This document shows positions 47,670 through 59,864 of a stretch of 64,000 nucleotides of DNA, one piece after another (the first letter of the stretch is position 1; each line of letters opens with the position of its first letter). The notes beneath the pieces are model-generated. The model searched no databases. It saw nothing but the letters and a program-made list of their open reading frames with translations, and was not told where the DNA came from. The position numbers and the translations under genes are program-made. This stretch comes from Natroniella sulfidigena (GTDB lineage: Bacteria > Bacillota > Halanaerobiia > Halobacteroidales > Halobacteroidaceae), in the NCBI RefSeq assembly GCF_023223645.1, contig NZ_JALKBY010000016.1, forward strand, positions 1-64,000, written 5' to 3'.

Positions 47670-48587
47670 TTATTTAATTTGGTTGAGATCATAAGGAGTC
47701 CGTTGATAAACATAATAGTTAAGCCAGTTAGAAAATAATAAATTAGCATGTGATCTCCACTCTACAGTCGGCTTTTGAGTTGGATCATCATCAGGAAAGT
47801 AATTTTTCGGAATTTGAATCTCGAGTCCTTTAGCTAAATCACGCTCATACTCCCCTTTTAAAGTAAGTCGATCATATTCAGAATGGCCGGTTACAAAGAT
47901 CTGTCTTCCATCTTTAGTCGCCACAAGATAAGCTCCCGCCTGCTCCGATTCAGCTAAAATTTCAAGTTCAGATACTTGCTCTATATCCTCTTTTCTTACT
48001 TCAGTATGGCGAGAATGCGGTGCCTTAAATCGATCATCAAACCCTCGTAGAAGCTTAACTTTATCCTTATTTATTTGGTGATCAAAGACACCAAACATCT
48101 TTTGTTCTAACGGATACTTAGGAATTCCAAAGTGATGATAAAGGCCTGCTTGAGCTCCCCAACAGATATGCAAAGTTGAAGTAACATTATTCAACTTCCA
48201 ATCCATTATTTCTTGTAATTCTTCCCAATAATCAACCTCTTCAAAGGGAAGATGTTCAACTGGTGCTCCTGTAATAATCATTCCATCAAACTTCTGCTCT
48301 TTAATCTGATCAAATGTCTTATAAAATGTACTCAAATGCTGCTGAGAAGTATTTTGAGATTTATGGGTTGCTGACTGTAAAAAGACAATATCTACCTGTA
48401 AAGGCGTATTTCCTAACAACCGAAGCAATTGAGTTTCAGTAACCTTTTTTAGTGGCATCAAATTCAAAATTAAGATTTTAAGAGCTCTAATATCCTGACT
48501 ATACGCTCTTGATTCTTTCATTACAAAGATATTTTCTTCTTCTAGAATCTTCGTTGCTGGTAAATTATCCGGAATATTGATTGGCAT
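47670..48587 (-). CDS. metA: Homoserine O-acyltransferase (MetA), probably acetyl-specific
   Basis: MetA activates homoserine for methionine synthesis. The catalytic Cys142 in [14 protein letters not shown], His235 and Glu237 in VTGHSEYD are at the canonical positions of the family. Residue 111 is Glu ([11 protein letters not shown]). Glu at 111 is known to go with acetyl-CoA and Gly with succinyl-CoA, so O-acetylhomoserine is the predicted product. The length is 305 aa. It is monocistronic, under a SAM-I riboswitch that should stop transcription when SAM is plentiful. Confidence 0.94.
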
Positions 48588-48611
48588 GACTACTCACTCC
48601 TCTTTTTATAT

Positions 48612-48645
48612 AAACTAAAAAAACCTCTTCTGTTAAGAAGAGATT
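48612..48645 (-). terminator. Terminator of the SAM-I riboswitch
   Basis: Stem 48622-48630 / 48637-48645 (CTCTTC core) with loop TTAACA is followed by GTTTTTTTAG on the minus strand, 24 bases before the metA start codon. Confidence 0.92.
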
Positions 48646-48658
48646 TATATTAACTCTT

Positions 48659-48763
48659 CTTATCTTCCAATACCTGATAGGTATTGCTGGATTTAGCACC
48701 TTCCTTAATTAAAAAGAGGTTGCCGGGCTTCATTGGGCCAATCCCTCCACCACTCTCGATAAG
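48659..48763 (-). promoter_or_regulatory. SAM-I riboswitch (S-box) upstream of metA
   Basis: The minus strand reads CTTATCGAGAGTGGTGGAGG, GGCCCAATGAAGCCCGGCAA, AGGTGCTAAATCCAGCA and ends GATAAG. The P1 helix is 48659-48664 / 48758-48763. These are the hallmark S-box segments. A terminator follows directly. Confidence 0.97.
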
Positions 48764-48784
48764 ACTATATTTTTAGTTTTAATT

Positions 48785-48813
48785 ATACTAACACATATTA
48801 ATAAAGTTGTCAA
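48785..48813 (-). promoter_or_regulatory. Promoter of metA
   Basis: TTGACA (48808-48813) and TAGTAT (48785-48790), spaced by 17, stand just upstream of the SAM-I aptamer; an overlapping TATAAT is three bases further on. Confidence 0.75.
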
Positions 48814-48878
48814 ACTCCTATCTTTCTCTACAGTGTGCAATACCATAAATTCCAAAAACAAAATTTCTACTTTATCTG

Positions 48879-48908
48879 TTGATCTAGATATTTACTAAAG
48901 TTTATGAT
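48879..48908 (+). promoter_or_regulatory. Candidate promoter of the YibE/F gene
   Basis: TTGATC (48879-48884) and TATGAT (48903-48908) are 18 bases apart on the plus strand, about 110 bases before the start. The rest of the 48764-49015 gap shows nothing else. Confidence 0.45.
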
Positions 48909-49015
48909 AAAATGATTTACGGCCTTGTTTGATTAAACTTATACTAGTCAATTTATTCAAACAATCAACCATTGCTAAAACAAATTTTCCAATCACAGGG
49001 AGGAAGTAATCGACT

Positions 49016-50149
49016 ATGAAAAAAATTATTATATTCTGTTCAGTTCTTTTATTTATAATGATGCCATCATCTATTCTTGCCCAAGAACAAGTCAGTTCTC
49101 AAACGGTACGAGGAAGAATTATTGAAATCGTCCAAGGGCCAACTGAGGAAGAGCAAAGTTATGTAGCTGATGTTCAACAAATTAAAGTTGAAATAACCCA
49201 AGGGGAGTTTAGAGGAGAAAAAGTAACGACCAATCATACTCTATCTGGCAACCCTGCTAGAGACTTTTACTATAATGAAGGAGATCGAGTATTGTTATGG
49301 GTTGAATCACAAGATGGAGCAATTACAAGAAGCTTAGTTCGAGAAGTGATTCGAGATCATTACCTAGGCTATTTAGCCCTCTTTTTCGTCTTCTCTCTTA
49401 TTTTAGTAGGAGGACGACAGGGCTTAAAGACAGTGCTAACCTTAAGTATTACCGGTTTTCTTGTTCTCAAAGTACTTTTACCCCTCATCTTAGAAGGGTA
49501 TCCACCTATTTTGACTACAATTATTATAACTTCTATCATTGTATCTATTAGCTTATTCATTACTAGTGGCTTTACTCGTAAAACATTAGCAGCTATTATC
49601 GGTACAATGGGTGGTGTTGTAGTCGCAGGAGTACTTGCCTGGTGGATGTCTTCTGCAACTAGATTGACTGGATTAAGTGGTGAAGAATCTCAAATGTTGA
49701 TGTATATTCCGCAAGGAACCGACTTTGACTTTAGGGGGCTCTTATTTGCAGGAATGATCATCGGAGCTATGGGGGCTGTACTAGATATAGGAATGTCTAT
49801 AGCCTCTACTATAGATGAGGTCAAACGGGCCAACCCTTCTATCAGTACTAAAGATTTGATTAAATCAGGACTAAATGTGGGAAGAGATATCATGGGTACC
49901 ATGTCCAATACCTTAATCCTAGCCTATACAGGTGCTTCTATGTCATTATTATTAGTCATAATAGCCAATGAAATTCCTTTATCTAGAATTACCAATATGG
50001 ATTCTATAGCAACAGAAATCGTTAGAGTTTTAGCTGGAAGTATCGGCTTAATCTATGCAATACCGATTACAGCTATCACTGCTGGCTTGCTTTATAGACA
50101 AGTAGATTTTTCAACAACAAACAATACTGACCAAACTAATAATCTGTAA
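49016..50149 (+). CDS. YibE/F-family membrane protein
   Basis: An N-terminal signal-like helix is followed by a soluble extracytoplasmic beta domain (about 25-115) with GRIIEIVQGP and YNEGDRVLLWV. About seven or eight membrane segments follow from residue 120 to the end. The YibE/F signature GMIIGAMGAVLDIGMSIAS near residue 240-260 and NTLILAYTGASM are present. The function of the family is unknown; a transport role is usually assumed. The gene is on the plus strand with AGGGAGG before its ATG, alone between minus-strand genes. Confidence 0.88.
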   Translation: MKKIIIFCSVLLFIMMPSSILAQEQVSSQTVRGRIIEIVQGPTEEEQSYVADVQQIKVEITQGEFRGEKVTTNHTLSGNPARDFYYNEGDRVLLWVESQDGAITRSLVREVIRDHYLGYLALFFVFSLILVGGRQGLKTVLTLSITGFLVLKVLLPLILEGYPPILTTIIITSIIVSISLFITSGFTRKTLAAIIGTMGGVVVAGVLAWWMSSATRLTGLSGEESQMLMYIPQGTDFDFRGLLFAGMIIGAMGAVLDIGMSIASTIDEVKRANPSISTKDLIKSGLNVGRDIMGTMSNTLILAYTGASMSLLLVIIANEIPLSRITNMDSIATEIVRVLAGSIGLIYAIPITAITAGLLYRQVDFSTTNNTDQTNNL

Positions 50150-50179
50150 TAAATTTAAAACAAATAATCAACCTAATTT

Positions 50180-50315
50180 TCCTCCTTAAAGTAGAGATAC
50201 AGTCACTAGTAATTAGTAACTAGTGACTAGTGACCAGTTACTAGTAAAAAAAACAACCAATATTAATTATACTTTAAACTTGAATATCTATATGTAAGGC
50301 TAACTTTAAGGAGGA
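50180..50315. repeat. 13-bp inverted repeat enclosing a heptamer family C array
   Basis: Perfect arms TCCTCCTTAAAGT (50180-50192) and its complement (50303-50315) enclose 110 bases. Within them 50201-50246 is a 7-mer array (ACTAGTA, ATTAGTA, ACTAGTG, ACTAGTG, ACCAGTT, ACTAGTA). The right arm is followed by TTTTAT on the plus strand, so it may have been the terminator of the YibE/F gene into whose loop the array expanded. Confidence 0.55.
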
Positions 50316-50331
50316 TTTTATAAAAAGTAAA

Positions 50332-51861
50332 TTAACTAGTGAAAATATCAGTCGAAGATTCTTCAGGAATAGACATAAAGAGGATACCTATATTTTCTCC
50401 TGCATCACTTTTGATTGGTGCATAAGCAGTCTGATGCATTTCACCTAATATATCTGCTCTTCCATAATACTCTTTACCTTCTTCTAATACCATTGTTGTT
50501 ATCTCATCCTTCCCTGAAGTTCCATCCGCTCTGACATTATCTATTCTAAGATTAGTAGCAACACTCATATAACCAGCAAAAATAGTAACTATAGCCCCTG
50601 TTACTTTTCCAATCTGATCAACAAGTTGATAATTTTTATTAATCAAAGTCTCCCCTTTATATAATTTATCTTCTTTTAATGACCAAGAACCTGGTACTTC
50701 TTCTTCTAATATTTCTTTTGCTAATTTAAATTTAGCTTTTAGAGTGGCAGATATCTTGGGCTCTACTAGATCCTGTAACTTCTGAGCCATCACCGTTAAG
50801 TTTTCAGAAGAATCTGATACTTCTTGAGACATCTCTGTTACCTGCTGAGAGGAATCCATGATTTGGTTTGTATTTTCAGCTAGATGCTGACTTGATATAG
50901 CAGTCTGTTCAATCTGATTAGAAGTCTCTTCAATGTAGTTTTTGATCTCTACAAAGACCTCTTCTGCTTCTTCTGCTATTGCCTTCCCCTCTTTAGCTTT
51001 AAGTTCAACTTTCTTAATTGAATCTAAAGCAGCTTTAGATTTATCTTGAGTTTCAGTGATTAATTGTTCAATATTTTCAGTAGCTTGAGCTGTCTCTGTA
51101 GCCAACACCCTAATCTCATCTGCTACAACTGCAAAACCAGCACCATCTGTACTAGAGTTGGCCCTAGCTGCTTCAATAGCTGCATTTAAGGCTAATAGAT
51201 TGGTCTGTTCTGCTATATTATTTATCAGTTCAACAATCTTACCTACCGCTTTTGAATTCTGAGCTAATTGATTAATACTCTCTACTGTATCTTTAACGAG
51301 ATAATTAATTCCTTCTATACTATCTATTGTATCATTAATATTTTCGCTACCAAGTTGAGCCTGAGCAGTTGTCTGTTGAGCAAAACTGCTTACTTCTTGA
51401 ATACTTGCCGAAATTTGTTGAATACTAGCTGACATTTCACCAATAGATTGATCAGTTTCTTCTATAGTCGTATTTCCTGCTTCAGCCGAAGCAGATAGCT
51501 CTTCACTATATGAAGATAAATCTTTGATCTCACTTAATAATTTGGTTAAGAGCTCTTTTTGTTCTCGAACAATCCAATTAATATTCTTAGCCAACTCTCC
51601 TAATTGATCTTTTCTATCCTCCTCTAATTCTACTGTCAAATCACCCGTTGCTACCCTTTGAATTCCTCTTTCTATTCTGTTTAACCTTCTAAATAAAAAT
51701 CTGTTCAAATAAATAGCTAATCCTAACAACGAGGTAATTAGTCCTAAATTTAAAGCCACTAACTTTATATTATCTATCAGTAATACATTAAACATCCCCA
51801 ATAACATAGCAATTGTAATAATCAAATTCACCTTACTCTTTAAAGAAAGAGAATCTTTCAT
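50332..51861 (-). CDS. Methyl-accepting chemotaxis protein with C-terminal Cache-like domain
   Basis: Two close N-terminal membrane helices (about 10-29 and 33-53) leave almost no external loop. A HAMP domain (about 54-106) and a receptor signalling coiled coil (about 110-366) follow. The hairpin tip is near LLALNAAIEAARANSSTDGA at 222-241. Unusually, residues ~375-500 form a Cache-like sensor (GSWSLKEDKLYKGETLI, IVTIFAGYMSVATNL, YAPIKSDAGENIGILFMSI). This segment is normally outside the cell and N-terminal; here it must be cytoplasmic. It is monocistronic, with no che genes nearby. The ligand is unknown. Confidence 0.9.
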   Translation of the reverse strand: MKDSLSLKSKVNLIITIAMLLGMFNVLLIDNIKLVALNLGLITSLLGLAIYLNRFLFRRLNRIERGIQRVATGDLTVELEEDRKDQLGELAKNINWIVREQKELLTKLLSEIKDLSSYSEELSASAEAGNTTIEETDQSIGEMSASIQQISASIQEVSSFAQQTTAQAQLGSENINDTIDSIEGINYLVKDTVESINQLAQNSKAVGKIVELINNIAEQTNLLALNAAIEAARANSSTDGAGFAVVADEIRVLATETAQATENIEQLITETQDKSKAALDSIKKVELKAKEGKAIAEEAEEVFVEIKNYIEETSNQIEQTAISSQHLAENTNQIMDSSQQVTEMSQEVSDSSENLTVMAQKLQDLVEPKISATLKAKFKLAKEILEEEVPGSWSLKEDKLYKGETLINKNYQLVDQIGKVTGAIVTIFAGYMSVATNLRIDNVRADGTSGKDEITTMVLEEGKEYYGRADILGEMHQTAYAPIKSDAGENIGILFMSIPEESSTDIFTS

Positions 51862-51937
51862 TATTTTTAATAACCTCCCATAAAAACTATAAAGATATAA
51901 TATTATCTTCTATCCAATTACCCTCACTTAAGTATAA

Positions 51938-51977
51938 ATAACTCTACAGCATTAAATATTTAATGCCGTAGAGTTAT
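51938..51977 (-). terminator. Hairpin downstream of the first 5'-nucleotidase region boundary
   Basis: A long stem (51938-51956 with 51959-51977, one mismatch; ATAACTCTAC at the base) lies between the receptor start and the nucleotidase stop at 52032. On the minus strand it follows the nucleotidase gene and leads into ATTTATACTT, so it is a weak terminator of that gene. Confidence 0.6.
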
Positions 51978-52031
51978 GTGTAATCGTACTTTTCCTAGTG
52001 ACTTTGATAGTCAGCTCTTAATTGTTGTTCT

Positions 52032-53966
52032 TTAGCTCCACAATCCACTCCAAAATGCTCTGATTCTATCCCATAAGCTAGTAGTTTCTTCTTGTTCTAC
52101 ACTTAAATCATACTCATATAGGCCCCAATCATCTTCTTCACCTACATAATCAATATAAGCTGCTTCACTATTAGTCATATGCTCTGTAGCATTTGGATAA
52201 GATCTGAATACTACTCTTCCCTCAGTCTCTACAGGTGCAATTGACCAGTAATCTGTTACTTCTGGATCAGCTCCACCAGTCTCTTGAATATAATCAATAA
52301 TTACTTCTCGATTTTCTTCAGTCCCTTGATAAACAACTTCAGCATCATTTAAGTGGTCTCCACCACCTGAAGCCCGATAATTATTTGTAACTGCTAAAAA
52401 CTCCATGTCTGCAGTTAATGGTTCTCCTTCATAAGTTGCATCTACAATTCGCTCTCCTATAGGCTGTGTTACATCAATTTCATATTCAATTCCTGCAATC
52501 TGATCAAAATTGAAACCTCTAAATCCATAATCTAATAATACTTGATCTTCAGTTTCTGATGGATCAATTTGATTAAAGTTTTCTGCTGATCTCTCTAACC
52601 AATCTATTACCTCTTCTCCATCTACTTTCACAACTTGTAAAGTATTATCGTAAATATAGATCTCTGCAACATCTCTAACTGCTATTCCACCTTCAGATAC
52701 ATCTGTGAAATAGTCTGCTCCATGACGTCCAGCTTTAAATGGAGCTGCTGCTGAAAGAACTGGTAAATCAGAGTACTCAGTCTCTTCAAAGTAGTTGTCA
52801 GCAAACCATAATTGAGCATCATTAACTAACTGAACTACTTTATTATCCTTAACTCTTGAGAAGAAAGTATTTAAGTTAGCAAAAGTTTCTCCAACATCTG
52901 TATTTACATAGTCAACTGTTGCTTCATGCTTTTCTTGTACAGATTCAGTAATCTCTTGCTCTAACTTTACATCTCCATCAACAGCTGTTACTTCAGACTG
53001 GCTATCTACAATTTGCCATCCATTACTATCATTAGTTAGACTTAAGTTAATAGCTCCTAAGTGGCTACCCCATGCTCCTGGCATTACTGCAGGCACACCA
53101 TTAATCGTTCCTTGCTCAATATCAACTCCATCAATACCTTCATAATCATTGCTTGGGAATCTTCTATGCTCATGCCCTAATAACATTGCATCAATACCTT
53201 CAACTTGGCTTAAATGATAAGCAGCATTCTCACTAGCTCCTTCACTTTCATCGATTCCTGTATGAGCAACAGCAAGAATAATATCTGCTCCCTCTGCTTT
53301 CATTTCTGGTACAAATTTTTCAGCTGTTTCTACTATCTCTCTTGCTTCTACCTCTCCTTCTAAATGAAGCTTATCCCACACCATAATTTGTGGTGGCACA
53401 AAACCAATTACTCCAACATTGATCTCTTCACCATCAACTTCACGCTCTAAAATCTTATAAGGTGTAAAGTAGTTTTCATCTGTTCCAGCTTCATAAACGT
53501 TAGCATTAACCAATGGAAATTCAGCATCACTATAAGCACGTTCTAAGAATTCTAATCCAAAGTTGAATTCATGGTTACCTGTTATTGCAGCATCATAACC
53601 AATCATATTCATAGAATCAATTGTTGCATGTACTTCACCATCTTGAATTGGGTCTACTACAGCCTCTATATTTCCTAATAAACTCCCTTGGATTAAATCT
53701 CCTGTATCGAACAATAGAGTATTATCATTGTTGGCCCTCATTTGATCGATTAATGTTGCTGTCTTTACTAATCCATAGCTATCAACTTCATTATCATTTA
53801 GATAATCATGAGGCATAATATAGGAATGAATATCCGTAGTACTCATAATCGTCAATTCATGAAGTTCACCTTCTTGGGCACTAACCTCTGGTAATACAGC
53901 CATAGAAAAAGCCAACATAAACGCTAGAGTAAGAATACCTATTTTACTAATTATTTTTGCTTTCAT
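52032..53966 (-). CDS. Secreted 5'-nucleotidase / cyclic phosphodiesterase (Sec-exported)
   Basis: The metallophosphatase hydrolyses extracellular nucleotides. A Sec signal peptide (hydrophobic core TLAFMLAFSMAVLP, cleavage after VSA near residue 30) precedes the catalytic domain. That domain carries TTDIHSYI, DTGDLIQGS, GNHEFNFG and GHEHRRFP. The C-terminal nucleotidase domain has TNNYRASGGGDH for nucleotide binding. The last residues (LWDRIRAFWSGLWS) are an aromatic amphipathic tail, perhaps for surface contact. The second of two adjacent ATGs (53966) is better spaced from GAGGAGG. It is a paralogue of the Tat-exported gene at 54640. Confidence 0.92.
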   Translation of the reverse strand: MKAKIISKIGILTLAFMLAFSMAVLPEVSAQEGELHELTIMSTTDIHSYIMPHDYLNDNEVDSYGLVKTATLIDQMRANNDNTLLFDTGDLIQGSLLGNIEAVVDPIQDGEVHATIDSMNMIGYDAAITGNHEFNFGLEFLERAYSDAEFPLVNANVYEAGTDENYFTPYKILEREVDGEEINVGVIGFVPPQIMVWDKLHLEGEVEAREIVETAEKFVPEMKAEGADIILAVAHTGIDESEGASENAAYHLSQVEGIDAMLLGHEHRRFPSNDYEGIDGVDIEQGTINGVPAVMPGAWGSHLGAINLSLTNDSNGWQIVDSQSEVTAVDGDVKLEQEITESVQEKHEATVDYVNTDVGETFANLNTFFSRVKDNKVVQLVNDAQLWFADNYFEETEYSDLPVLSAAAPFKAGRHGADYFTDVSEGGIAVRDVAEIYIYDNTLQVVKVDGEEVIDWLERSAENFNQIDPSETEDQVLLDYGFRGFNFDQIAGIEYEIDVTQPIGERIVDATYEGEPLTADMEFLAVTNNYRASGGGDHLNDAEVVYQGTEENREVIIDYIQETGGADPEVTDYWSIAPVETEGRVVFRSYPNATEHMTNSEAAYIDYVGEEDDWGLYEYDLSVEQEETTSLWDRIRAFWSGLWS

Positions 53967-54018
53967 CATCTTCCTCCTCTTTAATTTTAAAATAGTTTGA
54001 TAGTAGCATTTGTTTCCA

Positions 54019-54032
54019 GTTAGACGTCTAAC
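54019..54032. promoter_or_regulatory. 14-bp palindrome upstream of the Sec nucleotidase (candidate operator)
   Basis: GTTAGACGTCTAAC is a perfect palindrome about 55 bases upstream of the start codon. GACGTCTTAC, nine of ten bases alike, occurs at the deoC-side promoter (60172-60181). A shared nucleoside-related repressor is a possibility. Confidence 0.45.
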
Positions 54033-54237
54033 GACTACCTCTAAAAAAATAAAACCATATCAATAATAAGCTCATATGTCCCTTATGTTCTTATACTTAT
54101 TAATCTTTATCCTAAACAAATTTTATCATACTTTTTTAATATCTACAAGTAGTTTTCAGAAGTTTTTTATAATATAAACTACTCTACACTCTATTAATCA
54201 AAATCAAACGTAGGGTAATTCATAGTCAGTATATTCT

Positions 54238-54402
54238 TTATTCCTCTTCGCCTTCTATCTTCTCCACTTCCTGAGCTGCTGTTTTGAATTCCTTGATTCC
54301 TTTTCCTACAGCTTCACCTATCTCTGGTAATTTACTAGGGCCAAAGATCACAAGTGCAATCACTAAAATCAAAATCAACTCCGGTGCTCCTAATCCAAAC
54401 AT
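54238..54402 (-). CDS. tatA: Twin-arginine translocase subunit TatA
   Basis: The 54-aa protein [20 protein letters not shown]... has the TatA form: the N-terminal membrane helix with GAPELILI, the hinge [17 protein letters not shown], an amphipathic helix, and an acidic tail (EEE). TatA forms the pore of the Tat export system for folded proteins. GGAGGAG stands before ATG. It lies between two 5'-nucleotidases, directly downstream of one with an RR signal. No tatC is in the window. Confidence 0.92.
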
Positions 54403-54495
54403 ATTTCTCCTCCTTTCTTATTTAGTGCTCTCAACTAAATTTAATCCTATCACTACAGTACTTCGCAGATAACTAAGTTTCTCTGCACTCCCGTC

Positions 54496-54632
54496 TTAGT
54501 GTACAATTTACAATGTCAGTTGACAATTAAATTCAAAACCACACAATCAAAATACTAAAAAATCAATGTCTAGGGACTAAAAACTGACTGCCTCTTTGGA
54601 TTTCTAACAGTTTCTTTTAGCTGAGAATACTC
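54496..54632. repeat. Family D repeat between the Tat nucleotidase and tatA
   Basis: It begins with GTGTACA, ATTTACA, ATGTCA-type heptamers and AATTCAAAACCA, and ends TTTCTTTTAGCTGAGAATAC, which matches 43748-43768 closely. The middle is less alike. Confidence 0.5.
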
Positions 54633-54639
54633 TTATTAT

Positions 54640-56589
54640 TTATAAATTTGCTAAGTCTATCTTATAAACTCCCATTCCATTCTCATCTATTTCTAATTGT
54701 TCTACCTTTCCTTTAAGGCTATCTACAATTTCCTTTTCAGCTTCTGGATGCGAACGGAAGGTTACTGTTCCAGCAGTCTCAACCGGCTTAATCCTCCAGT
54801 TGTTCGTTGGTTCAGGGCTAATTGGTTCATTTTCTTCAATATATTGGACTATCATTTCTCGATTCACCTCACCTGCTGGAGCATAAACTGGGTCAACTTG
54901 AGGAACATGTCCTCCTCCACCACCTGCACGATAATCATTAGTAACTACTAAAAATTCTTGGTCTGTAGTTAAAGGTGATCCTTCATAAGTAACATTGACA
55001 ATTCTTTCTCCCACAGGTTGAGTAACATCAATTTCATATTCAATTCCATCAATTACATCATAGTTAAAGGCAGAGAATTCACCATTTAGTAACTCTTGTG
55101 TCGCAGTAAAGTTCGGATCGATTTGATTAAAGTTCTCAGCACTTTTCTCCAACCATTCAATCACTTCTTCTCCATTCAACTTCATAACCCTAATTTGATT
55201 ATCATAGATATAAATATCCGTTACATCACCAATCGTTACATTACCAGCAAACACTTCAGTAAAGTACTCTGCATCCTGACGTCCAGCTTGGAAAGGAGCA
55301 GCTGCTGATAAGATCGGTAAATTAGAGTACTCTCCATTAGCAAAGGTTCTTTCTGCCCACCAGATTTGAGCATCATTGACAATTTGAGTTACTGGTGAAT
55401 CTGCAACTCGAGAGAAGTAGGATGTAATACCAATCTCAGTTGCTCCAATTGGAGTTCTTACGTATTCAATAGTCTTTTGATGAACATCTTGAGCCATCTC
55501 TTCAATCTCAGGATGCGAAGCAACACTTTCGTCAATCTTTCTTAATCGAACCTTAGCATCTTTTACTTCCCAATCTCCATTATTATTAACTAAATCTAAA
55601 TCGATAGCACCTAAAGCACCACCCCAGGAGCCAGCCATTATCGTTGGTACACCATGAATAATTCCTAATTCATTATCTAACTTCTCTATTCCATCATAAT
55701 CACCTGGCATATAATTATGATCATGGCCTAAGATCATAGCATCAATTCCATCAACTTGGGCCAAATAAAGAGCAGCATCTTCTCGAGCATCATCAGAATC
55801 CTTTGGAGCATCCTCTATACCTGTATGGGCCAACGCAATTACAATATCAGATTTCTCTTTAACTTCTGGTACATACTTTTCTGCTTGCTCTACAATATCC
55901 TTTATTTCTAACTTCCCTTCAACATGATCTCTACCCCATAGCATAGTTTGAGGTGGCAAGAAACCAATAATTCCCACTTTAAGAACTTCACCATCAACTT
56001 CTTGTTCAATAATTGTATATGGTTCTACATAAAACTCATCAGGATTATCAGCTAATTTAATATTAGCAGCCAACCAAGGAAAATCAGAACCATCTCTAGC
56101 TAATTCAAAGAAATCCATTCCATAATCTTGTAGTTCATGATTACCCATAGTTATTGCTTCATACCCCATATGGTTCAATACCTCAACAATTGTTTGAGTT
56201 TCTCCCTCTTCTAGAGGTTCAACTTGATATTCATAATTACCAATTAAGCTCCCTTGAATCGTATCTCCAGCCGAAAGAAGCATTGTATTATCTTGTTCTT
56301 TTCTTTCCTCTTCAATTAAGGTAAATACCTTAGAAAGACCAATTGTTTCATTAGGTGCATCAGCCATATAATCATAAGGTAGAATATACTGATGTTCATC
56401 AGTTGTAGTTAATAAAGTTAATTGATGTTCACTCTTTACTGGGCCAGATGACATAGCATTAGCAGTATTACTACTTAAATTAAATCCAAGCCCAGTAATA
56501 AATGTCCCTGCCAATACTTGACCTGTTCCAACTAAAAAGTCCCTTCGAGATAACCTCTTTTCCCCTTTTTTCTTATCTTTTTTAGACAT
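54640..56589 (-). CDS. Tat-exported 5'-nucleotidase family protein
   Basis: The N-terminus has a Tat signal: a basic start, SRRDFL with Arg15-Arg16, a hydrophobic stretch, and a likely cleavage after TANA near residue 45. The metallophosphatase motifs are TTDEHQYILPYDY, SAGDTIQGS, GNHELQDYG and GHDHNYMPG, and the C-terminal TNDYRAGGGGGHV binds nucleotide. It is the same length as and clearly homologous to the Sec-exported gene at 52032. Use of Tat suggests it folds or takes metal in the cytoplasm first. AAGGAGG precedes ATG. tatA follows 240 bases downstream. Confidence 0.93.
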   Translation of the reverse strand: MSKKDKKKGEKRLSRRDFLVGTGQVLAGTFITGLGFNLSSNTANAMSSGPVKSEHQLTLLTTTDEHQYILPYDYMADAPNETIGLSKVFTLIEEERKEQDNTMLLSAGDTIQGSLIGNYEYQVEPLEEGETQTIVEVLNHMGYEAITMGNHELQDYGMDFFELARDGSDFPWLAANIKLADNPDEFYVEPYTIIEQEVDGEVLKVGIIGFLPPQTMLWGRDHVEGKLEIKDIVEQAEKYVPEVKEKSDIVIALAHTGIEDAPKDSDDAREDAALYLAQVDGIDAMILGHDHNYMPGDYDGIEKLDNELGIIHGVPTIMAGSWGGALGAIDLDLVNNNGDWEVKDAKVRLRKIDESVASHPEIEEMAQDVHQKTIEYVRTPIGATEIGITSYFSRVADSPVTQIVNDAQIWWAERTFANGEYSNLPILSAAAPFQAGRQDAEYFTEVFAGNVTIGDVTDIYIYDNQIRVMKLNGEEVIEWLEKSAENFNQIDPNFTATQELLNGEFSAFNYDVIDGIEYEIDVTQPVGERIVNVTYEGSPLTTDQEFLVVTNDYRAGGGGGHVPQVDPVYAPAGEVNREMIVQYIEENEPISPEPTNNWRIKPVETAGTVTFRSHPEAEKEIVDSLKGKVEQLEIDENGMGVYKIDLANL

Positions 56590-56946
56590 TTTATCAATCC
56601 TCCTTAAAATTTCAAAATTTTATTTTATACATCTTTAAATATAATCATCTTCACTATTTAACTCTGCTTAACTTTATATTTCAAATATTTTGATTATTAA
56701 AAACAAAACCTCAGAAGTCAAATGTCATATGTAAGATGTCAGACAACTCTATCTAAAAAAAGAGCTTCCAACTAATCAATCTTAACCTAATAGTATTGTT
56801 CTACACGAATCGGCAAATTCCTTTATGTATATAGAATTTATTTTCAAATTGTATATTATAAGCTTGTTGAACAATTAAAATTTCATCTATCTTTTCAGGT
56901 TCTTAAAGGCTAATCATTCAACAAGCCCTATAAAACTAACAAAAAA
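56590..56946. other. Gap with short heptamer patch and a 10-bp inverted repeat
   Basis: No gene is visible. At 56713-56744 a patch of heptamers (GTCAAAT, GTCATAT, GTAAGAT, GTCAGAC) occurs. GCTTGTTGAA (56862-56871) faces its complement at 56917-56926 across 45 bases, downstream of cdd; it has only a weak T tail, so it may or may not end cdd transcription. Confidence 0.5.
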
Positions 56947-57348
56947 TTAGGATAGATCTTCTTCAGAGAATGCTCCCCATAATAATTCACTAGCTTTTTT
57001 AGTAATCGTCTCTCCATCTAAATTAGTCATAATCACATCAATCTCTGAACCAAACTCTAAAATAACCTGTCGACAGGCACCACAAGGACTACAAGCCCTC
57101 TCTGTATCTGCTATGATAGCGATTGCTTCAAACTCTTTATCTCCTTCAGAAACAGCCTTATAAATAGCCGTTCTTTCAGCACAATTAGTCAATCCATAGG
57201 AAGAATTCTCAACATTACATCCTGTATAGATCTCCCCATCTGTAGTTAATAAGGCAGCACCAACCTTAAAGTTTGAGTAAGGAACATGAGCTTTTTCTCG
57301 TGCTTGTTTAGCTTCTGCAATTAACTTCTCTTTTAGATTCTGATCCAT
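56947..57348 (-). CDS. cdd: Cytidine deaminase
   Basis: Cdd converts cytidine and deoxycytidine to uridine and deoxyuridine. The 133-aa protein has the zinc and catalytic motifs NCAERTAIYKA (Cys and Glu, near residue 54) and SPCGACRQVILEF (near 86-98), and VPYSNFKVGAALLT at the N-terminus. It is the small homotetramer type. GGGAGGTGA precedes ATG. It lies about 230 bases after nupC, suggesting a nucleoside salvage unit. Confidence 0.96.
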   Translation of the reverse strand: MDQNLKEKLIAEAKQAREKAHVPYSNFKVGAALLTTDGEIYTGCNVENSSYGLTNCAERTAIYKAVSEGDKEFEAIAIIADTERACSPCGACRQVILEFGSEIDVIMTNLDGETITKKASELLWGAFSEEDLS

Positions 57349-57576: not shown

Positions 57577-58767
57577 TTACATGAAAAGTCCAGCAATAGT
57601 AGCTGTAGTATAAGTTGCTAATGTTCCGGCAATTAATGCCTTAACACCTAAACTAGCAATTAAACCTTTTCTTTCTGGATCTAATGGGCCAATACCACCA
57701 ATCTGAATCGCAATTGAAGCAAAGTTAGCAAATCCACATAAAGCAAAAGTAGCAATTATTTCAGATTTAGCACTTAGTGCTTCTGCTGCAAGTAAATCAG
57801 CTAAACTTAGATATGCTACAAACTCATTGATAGCCATCTTTTGACCCAATAAAGTTCCAACCTCTGTAATTTCTGCTGCAGGAACTCCCATTAAGAAAGC
57901 AAATGGAGAGAATACATATCCTAAAATCTGTTCTAAACTTGTACCTAATAGTCCTAATGGATAGTTAATTAAAGCAATTAATCCTAAAAATCCAATCAAC
58001 ATTGCAGCTACATTTAAAGCAAGAGTTAAACCTTCACTTGCTCCTTCTGCAGCAGCTCCTATTACATTCTCATTATCAATCTCGACATCTATATCTACTT
58101 CTCCAGCAGTTACAGATTCTTCAGTTTCTGGCACGATAATTTTAGCCATTACTAAAGCAGCTGGAGCAGACATTACACTTGCTGCTAATAAATAACCAGG
58201 ATCAATTCCCATCCCGATAAATCCAGCCAATACTCCACCGGCTACTGTGGCAAATCCTCCACCCATCATTGCCATAACCTCAGAACGAGTCATCTTCGGA
58301 ATATACCTTTTAACAACCAAAGGTGCCTCAGTCTGCCCAACAAAGACATTGGCAGCAGCAGCTAAGGATTCAGCACCACTTAATCCCATCACCTTCATCA
58401 TAATACCTGCCATAGCTTCAACTAACTTTTGAACAATCCCAAGATAATACATTACTGACATTAAAGATGAGAAGAAAATAATTGTAGGTAATACCATCAA
58501 AGCAAAACTATGTTCAGCCATCAAATATTCACCAAATACAAACTCAGCACCATCAAGAGCAAAATCTAAAATAGTAGCTGCCACTTCACTCAACCATTGA
58601 AAAGCAGCTCTTCCCGGTGGAAATGCTAAAATTAGAAAAGCAAAGACTAACTGTAGGACAAGTCCACCAATAACAGTCCGATGATTAACAGCCTTCCTGT
58701 CTTCAGACAATGCATAAGCAATTCCTAAAAATACTAATAATCCTAAAATTCCAATTAACCTTGACAT
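57577..58767 (-). CDS. nupC: Concentrative nucleoside transporter (NupC/CNT family)
   Basis: The 396-aa membrane protein imports nucleosides by ion symport. The family marks are GLVLQLVFAFLILAFP near the start, the FVGQTEAPLVVKRYIPKMTRSE substrate-binding motif near residue 142, and LGQKMAINEFVAYLSL and ALCGFANFASIAIQIGG in the C-terminal half. Ten or so hydrophobic segments are visible. ATG follows AAGGGGG. Its 5' leader carries inverted repeats and two copies of AATAGCTATT, suggesting regulation. It sits between deoC and cdd. Confidence 0.94.
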   Translation of the reverse strand: MSRLIGILGLLVFLGIAYALSEDRKAVNHRTVIGGLVLQLVFAFLILAFPPGRAAFQWLSEVAATILDFALDGAEFVFGEYLMAEHSFALMVLPTIIFFSSLMSVMYYLGIVQKLVEAMAGIMMKVMGLSGAESLAAAANVFVGQTEAPLVVKRYIPKMTRSEVMAMMGGGFATVAGGVLAGFIGMGIDPGYLLAASVMSAPAALVMAKIIVPETEESVTAGEVDIDVEIDNENVIGAAAEGASEGLTLALNVAAMLIGFLGLIALINYPLGLLGTSLEQILGYVFSPFAFLMGVPAAEITEVGTLLGQKMAINEFVAYLSLADLLAAEALSAKSEIIATFALCGFANFASIAIQIGGIGPLDPERKGLIASLGVKALIAGTLATYTTATIAGLFM

Positions 58768-59141: not shown

Positions 59142-59816
59142 CTAATAGTCTCCTGTAACCTTTTCTCCAGCTACAATCTTGACACCAGAGCTAGCTCCAA
59201 TTCTTGTAGCACCTGCTTCAATCATATTTTGAGCATCTTCTAAACTTCTAACGCCACCTGAAGCCTTAACTCCTAATTCTTCACCAACAACTTCTCTCAT
59301 CAATCTTATATCTTCAACAGTTGCTCCACCTGTTCCAAAGCCAGTAGATGTCTTAACAAAATCTGCCCCTGCTTCTTTAGCTACCTGACACGCTTTCTTC
59401 TTTTCTTCTTCTGTCAAATAACATGTTTCAATAATAACTTTAACTAAAGCTTTATCTTGAGCAGCTTCAACAACTGCTTTGATATCTTCTTGCACAACTT
59501 CCCAGTCCCCAGACTTTAAAGCTCCAATATTGATCACCATATCAATCTCATCAGCACCCTCTTTAATCGCCTTATTTGTTTCAAAGGCTTTAGTTTCTGC
59601 TGTGTTGGCCCCTAATGGAAATCCAATCACTGTACAAACCTTTACTGGGCTACCTTCTAACTCTTTACTTATTAAGGATACAAAAGCTGGGTTAATACAA
59701 ACAGAAGCAAAATTATGCTCTTTTGCCTCCTGACATTTAGTTATAACCTCTTCTTTAGTTGCTTCAGCACTTAATATCGTATGATCAATTATACTTGCTA
59801 TCTCATTGACCTCCAT
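59142..59816 (-). CDS. deoC: Deoxyribose-phosphate aldolase
   Basis: DeoC splits deoxyribose-5-phosphate to acetaldehyde and glyceraldehyde-3-phosphate. The Schiff-base Lys lies in [15 protein letters not shown] near residue 155, the second Lys in [10 protein letters not shown], and the phosphate site in [14 protein letters not shown]. It begins [15 protein letters not shown], typical of the family. Two ATGs are adjacent; the second (59816) is better spaced from GGAGGGG. An XapX gene lies 48 bases upstream, probably on the same transcript from 60189-60217. Confidence 0.95.
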
Positions 59817-59864
59817 CATACCCCTCCAGTTTTATTAATCTATTATTTGACTATACTTAATAAT

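Follow-up and report, generated by a model that had tools for sequence, protein, structure and literature searches.

In the 64,000-nucleotide stretch of Natroniella sulfidigena DNA analysed here (the window), a chemoreceptor gene (50332..51861, minus strand; 509 aa, ATG start) was identified whose product has, by Pfam assignment, the domain order TM-TM-HAMP-MA-sCache_3_3. The only sensor of this receptor, the sCache_3_3 domain, has probably moved from an external N-terminal position to a cytoplasmic C-terminal one, where it would read a cytoplasmic metabolite, perhaps one linked to nucleotides.

Architecture of the receptor and identity of its C-terminal domain

Hydropathy analysis delimited two membrane helices, TM1 at residues 11–29 (51775..51831, minus strand; peak 2.41) and TM2 at residues 34–53 (51703..51762, minus strand; peak 2.11), spaced by a loop of about 4 residues, and beyond residue 70 no membrane segment was found above the hydropathy threshold of 1.6. 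The C-terminal side of TM2 is assigned to the cytoplasm because the Arg-rich segment NRFLFRRLNR follows it. The HAMP domain occupies residues 52–96 (51574..51708, minus strand; PF00672, E 2.3e-11) and the Pfam match of the MCP signalling domain residues 188–344 (50830..51300, minus strand; PF00015, E 1.5e-40), within an MA coiled coil that spans about residues 100–362 and turns at about residue 230. The conserved MCP hairpin tip EQTNLLALNAAIEAAR is present and, by homology, the receptor would be expected to couple to CheA/CheW and to be methylated. Its tip (residues 233–243) carries two extra residues (ARANSSTDGAGF versus ARAGEQGRGF). Four extra tip residues are found in three other receptors of the order (L002, L015, L027), and 76 of the 80 MA hairpin tips surveyed have none.

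The C-terminal domain, modelled as residues 378–509 (50335..50730, minus strand), consists of one Cache domain, which belongs to the sCache_3_3 family (PF17202, E 1.8e-26) and has a long first helix starting at about residue 367. The family match covers residues 406–506 with 93.0 bits (cut-off 28.8); like those of HAMP and MCPsignal, it exceeds the curated Pfam cut-off. An AlphaFold2 model of the Cache alone, built from three sequences, has a mean pLDDT of 90.3 and a pTM of 0.85 over residues 378–509 and displays the long N-terminal helix and PAS-like sheet of the Cache fold, while a prediction on the Cache plus the MA tail from two sequences gave a pLDDT of 37.9. Foldseek and VIA-align agree in placing the formate-bound structures 8PY0 (TM 0.78, Z 15.9) and 8PY1 (TM 0.74, Z 14.6) first among the matches to the model, followed by other Caches, e.g., KinD (4JGO) and CitA (1P0Z). 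A sequence search of the PDB also retrieves 8PY0 and 8PY1, and the structural and sequence matches together identify the domain as a Cache. Since HAMP and MA precede it with no intervening membrane segment, the Cache is predicted to lie in the cytoplasm; no membrane segment was found by hydropathy after it either. The usual sCache_3_3 setting, extracytoplasmic and flanked by two membrane helices (which does not strictly define the family), is thus not the one found here.

The frame around the receptor ORF measures 525 aa from stop to stop. It leaves at most about 15 additional upstream residues, too few for a lost sensor. The ATG at 51861 is preceded by a ribosome-binding-like GGGAGGT (51873..51879, minus strand), and a misplaced start was rejected. 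The first-pass annotation had given the ORF the coordinates confirmed here. It had also correctly described the two N-terminal helices, the lack of an external sensor, the succession of helices, HAMP, signalling domain and Cache, and a Cache-like pattern at about residues 375–500, which now corresponds to the PF17202 match and to the fold of the AlphaFold2 model. It had called for structure prediction and a domain search, and had named a fold unlike Cache or a misplaced start with a lost upstream sensor as refuting its reading; neither was encountered.

Rarity of the domain order and origin of the fusion

An ortholog with the same order, 58% identical overall, is encoded by Halonatronum saccharophilum DSM 13868, the only further case returned by a search of genome contigs for the MA-Cache order. 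A match spanning MA and Cache in this order is found in 2 of the 59 genomes of the class, and no third genome with such a match was identified in the order (13 genomes) or in the class. Matches above the search thresholds in 398 genomes sampled from the phylum, together with those of the order, defined a survey set of 98 distinct sCache_3_3-type ORFs, relatives mostly from one phylum: 64 have the arrangement Cache-MA, 32 an N-terminal Cache without MA, and two the arrangement MA-Cache. The Cache is therefore N-terminal in 96 of the 98, the two exceptions being the window receptor and its Halonatronum counterpart. The survey for same-order receptors proposed in the first-pass annotation has thus yielded one further case. 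Among plasmid records, 95 had a match, none of which covered 80% of the MA-Cache query; three were inspected and all have the Cache N-terminally. Viral contigs had no match to the C-terminal pair; a search of them with the family profile returned one conventional N-terminal receptor, and a search with the C-terminal half of that profile returned nothing. Of the 32 ORFs in which an N-terminal Cache comes without MA (350–440 aa), two, L074 and L079, were read by eye and have a helix-turn-helix-like end after TM2/HAMP, while L099, also with an N-terminal sCache_3_3 and no MA, ends in GGDEF. ORFs of these types are apparently membrane-bound regulators.

The rarity of the MA-Cache order could raise the suspicion of an artefact, namely a wrong start, an assembly chimera or a gene fusion created by sequencing error. 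This explanation is refuted by the 58% identical receptor of an independent genome, in which both order and junction recur, and the open frame without upstream room and the ribosome-binding-like sequence also speak against it. An assembly artefact was rejected because Halonatronum carries the same fusion, and the probability left to any such error is negligible.

The fusion junction was placed by alignments at residues 365–378 (LVEPKISATLKAKF; 50728..50769, minus strand). It is the same in both receptors (LVEPK and LIEPK), and its (I/V)EP motif aligns with the TM1 exit (FVIEP) of L002, a conventional paralog encoded in the same genome. In the Cache tree the two C-terminal copies join with support of 100/100, and the pair is sister to the N-terminal Cache of L002 (96/94) on a long branch of 1.18 changes per column. 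The pair also groups together in the MA tree, which does not resolve the donor of the receptor backbone. Judging by sequence, sensor and MA domains have been shuffled elsewhere in the family: the Caches of L005 and L017, for instance, are 76% alike versus 34% for their MAs. An external Cache, cut just after TM1 and before TM2, likely became attached to a receptor's C-terminus in or near the family.

Constraint on the Cache, its pocket and the gene neighbourhood

Between the window receptor and its Halonatronum ortholog dN falls from 0.72 for the membrane helices through 0.47 for HAMP and 0.27 for MA to 0.20 for the Cache, with dS so near saturation that dN/dS is only a rough measure. Of these four regions, the Cache has accordingly been conserved best across the two genera and the membrane region least. 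Pairs of conventional receptors show a similar range of Cache versus MA identity, and the idea of an unusually slow evolution of the Cache compared with MA was dropped for that reason; the domain appears strongly constrained, but not unusually so. A drifting sensorless membrane part combined with a Cache held constant is as expected if the Cache senses. The maintenance of the order in a second genus together with this strong constraint argues for a working sensor.

Residues R142, T145 and T158 of PacF affect formate binding, according to PMC12501870, which cites Monteagudo-Cascales 2025. By spacing and alignment to 8PY0/8PY1 they correspond to positions 433, 436 and 448 of the window receptor. 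The anchoring Arg is kept in 82 of the 96 N-terminal relatives (85%) and the complete R-T-T triad in 78 of them. On this alignment, the formate-anchoring position holds a Ser433 codon (50563..50565, minus strand); the triad reads S433-T436-T448 in the window protein and S-T-N in Halonatronum. Neither copy has the Arg-Thr-Thr signature of the formate-specific sCache group (8PY0/8PY1, PacF-like). The pair shares changes at four positions conserved in the relatives (S433, I454, M496, S497) and is identical over residues 449–463 and 469–480. These shared changes and identical stretches suggest that the pocket may have been retuned and conserved, rather than being in decay. The changed residues may touch a ligand, which is probably not formate.

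Two other explanations bear on these residues. The C-terminal Cache might have lost ligand binding and serve as a structural or regulatory add-on (a dimer clamp, an adaptor or a membrane-proximal cap), the receptor being driven otherwise, e.g., by membrane helices or HAMP sensing the state or energy of the membrane. Such an add-on would be compatible with the loss of the formate-anchoring Arg, with the Asn found in Halonatronum in place of T448 and with the long branch leading to the pair, but it fits poorly with the ranking by dN, in which the Cache has changed least and the membrane helices most, and with the two stretches that are identical in the pair. We consider it unlikely. Alternatively, the cytoplasmic Cache could still sense formate or another small carboxylate, a fermentation product of the cell itself, and serve as an end-product gauge. 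The closest solved relatives are indeed formate-bound and the window protein retains both Thr residues of the triad (T436 and T448); yet both copies have Ser in place of the Arg reported as important in PacF (PMC12501870), and one of them has Asn at the position of T448. An end-product gauge of this kind seems to us quite improbable.

The receptor gene lies in a neighbourhood of nucleotide- and nucleoside-scavenging genes. On the minus strand of the window the order is lactate permease, deoxyribose-phosphate aldolase (deoC, 59142..59819), a NupC-type nucleoside transporter (57577..58767), cytidine deaminase (cdd, 56947..57348; PF00383), two 5′-nucleotidase-like enzymes (54640..56589 and 52032..53969) and the receptor, followed by a convergent plus-strand gene for a YibE/F family protein (49016..50149; PF07907). 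The nucleotidase closest to the receptor (PF02872 and PF00149) is probably secreted, and a homolog 75% identical to it is encoded beside the Halonatronum receptor. The tandem enzymes differ in their export signals, apparently Sec-type in the one closest to the receptor and twin-arginine-like (RRDFL) in the other. The Halonatronum order is fructose-6-phosphate aldolase/transaldolase, cdd, receptor, 5′-nucleotidase and convergent YibE/F; cdd is beside the receptor in that genome, and YibE/F also ends the cluster. In a genome of the same genus (G009, locus L064) metA and cdd are separated by about 0.5 kb, and the block of YibE/F, receptor and two nucleotidases that lies between these genes in the window (48587–56947) is absent; searches of the G009 genome gave no match to a nucleotidase or to MA-Cache. 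Because the cluster occurs in both genomes and the block is missing from G009, the receptor gene is seen, by gene order, to travel with nucleotide-scavenging genes, a link that covers two genomes of one family. The nearby YibE/F, metA and lactate permease genes fit no single pathway. Between the nucleotidase and the receptor there is an 18-bp terminator-like hairpin (51938..51977, minus strand; −23.8 kcal/mol, z −6.3) strong enough that a shared transcript is not assured. Its T tail is weak.

Proposed mechanism and comparison with known systems

The MA hairpin would run down and back, and its return to about residue 362 would set the Cache next to HAMP, close to the membrane, with its first helix as an extension of the returning MA helix. 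A bound ligand could then shift this first helix directly and act on the methylation region, and hence on CheA activity, with no need for a transmembrane signal. This route from Cache to methylation region to CheA is deduced from the anatomy of the protein. The ligand would be a small cytoplasmic metabolite that rises during uptake and degradation of nucleotides and nucleosides; its tie to this catabolism is a weaker inference, drawn from the position of the gene next to secreted 5′-nucleotidases, NupC, cytidine deaminase and deoxyribose-phosphate aldolase. If the ligand is nucleoside-linked, the protein would be a metabolism-dependent taxis receptor. That the retuned Cache is a true cytoplasmic sensor, signalling backwards via the returning MA helix and coupling taxis to the intracellular products of nucleotide scavenging, is put forward tentatively, as a possibility rather than as an expectation. 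The first-pass annotation had proposed that a cytoplasmic ligand is read through a domain of a type known for external ligands. The cytoplasmic reading gains from the domain order, from its presence in a second genus and from the constraint on the Cache, whereas the sensing of a ligand type known from outside is weakened by the loss of the formate-anchoring Arg in both copies. The Cache would have changed both its end of the protein and its side of the membrane, and the same genome keeps its conventional parent, offering a clean test of the evolution of sensor position, signalling direction and ligand choice. If true, the proposal would tie swimming directly to nucleotide metabolism inside the cell.

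Cytoplasmic PAS and CZB sensors at the C-terminus are known from other chemoreceptors. A literature search on C-terminal sensors in chemoreceptors, thin on subscription papers, gave nothing to the point, and no earlier report of a Cache of the mainly external sCache_3_3 type behind a chemoreceptor MA was found in the literature searched. Cache is the dominant extracytoplasmic sensor of prokaryotes, its wiring being explained by the flanking membrane helices, and all its families are principally extracellular with the exception of YkuI_C and Diacid_rec (Upadhyay et al. 2016, PMC4822843). YkuI_C belongs to c-di-GMP enzymes; Diacid_rec is mainly a domain of transcription factors, with 30 Diacid_rec MCPs besides (PMC4822843, Table 1). 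An intracellular Cache is thus not without precedent, although these two are Cache families other than sCache_3_3 (PMC4822843). The conventional paralog L002 (534 aa, TM-Cache-TM-HAMP-MA) has homologous HAMP and MA domains and a Cache about 44% identical to that of the window receptor, but its Cache is external, between the membrane helices, and its R-T-T formate triad is intact. The domains of 8PY0 (Oscillibacter ruminantium) and 8PY1 (Asticcacaulis benevestitus) resemble the window Cache in fold over their whole length and are homologous in sequence; the window Cache differs from them in its C-terminal and cytoplasmic position and in the replacement of the formate-anchoring Arg by Ser. McpR, a cytoplasmic chemoreceptor, reports the state of the cytosol, as the window receptor would, but it has no membrane helices and its sensor is N-terminal (PMC10579534), whereas the window receptor is membrane-anchored and carries its sensor at the C-terminus.
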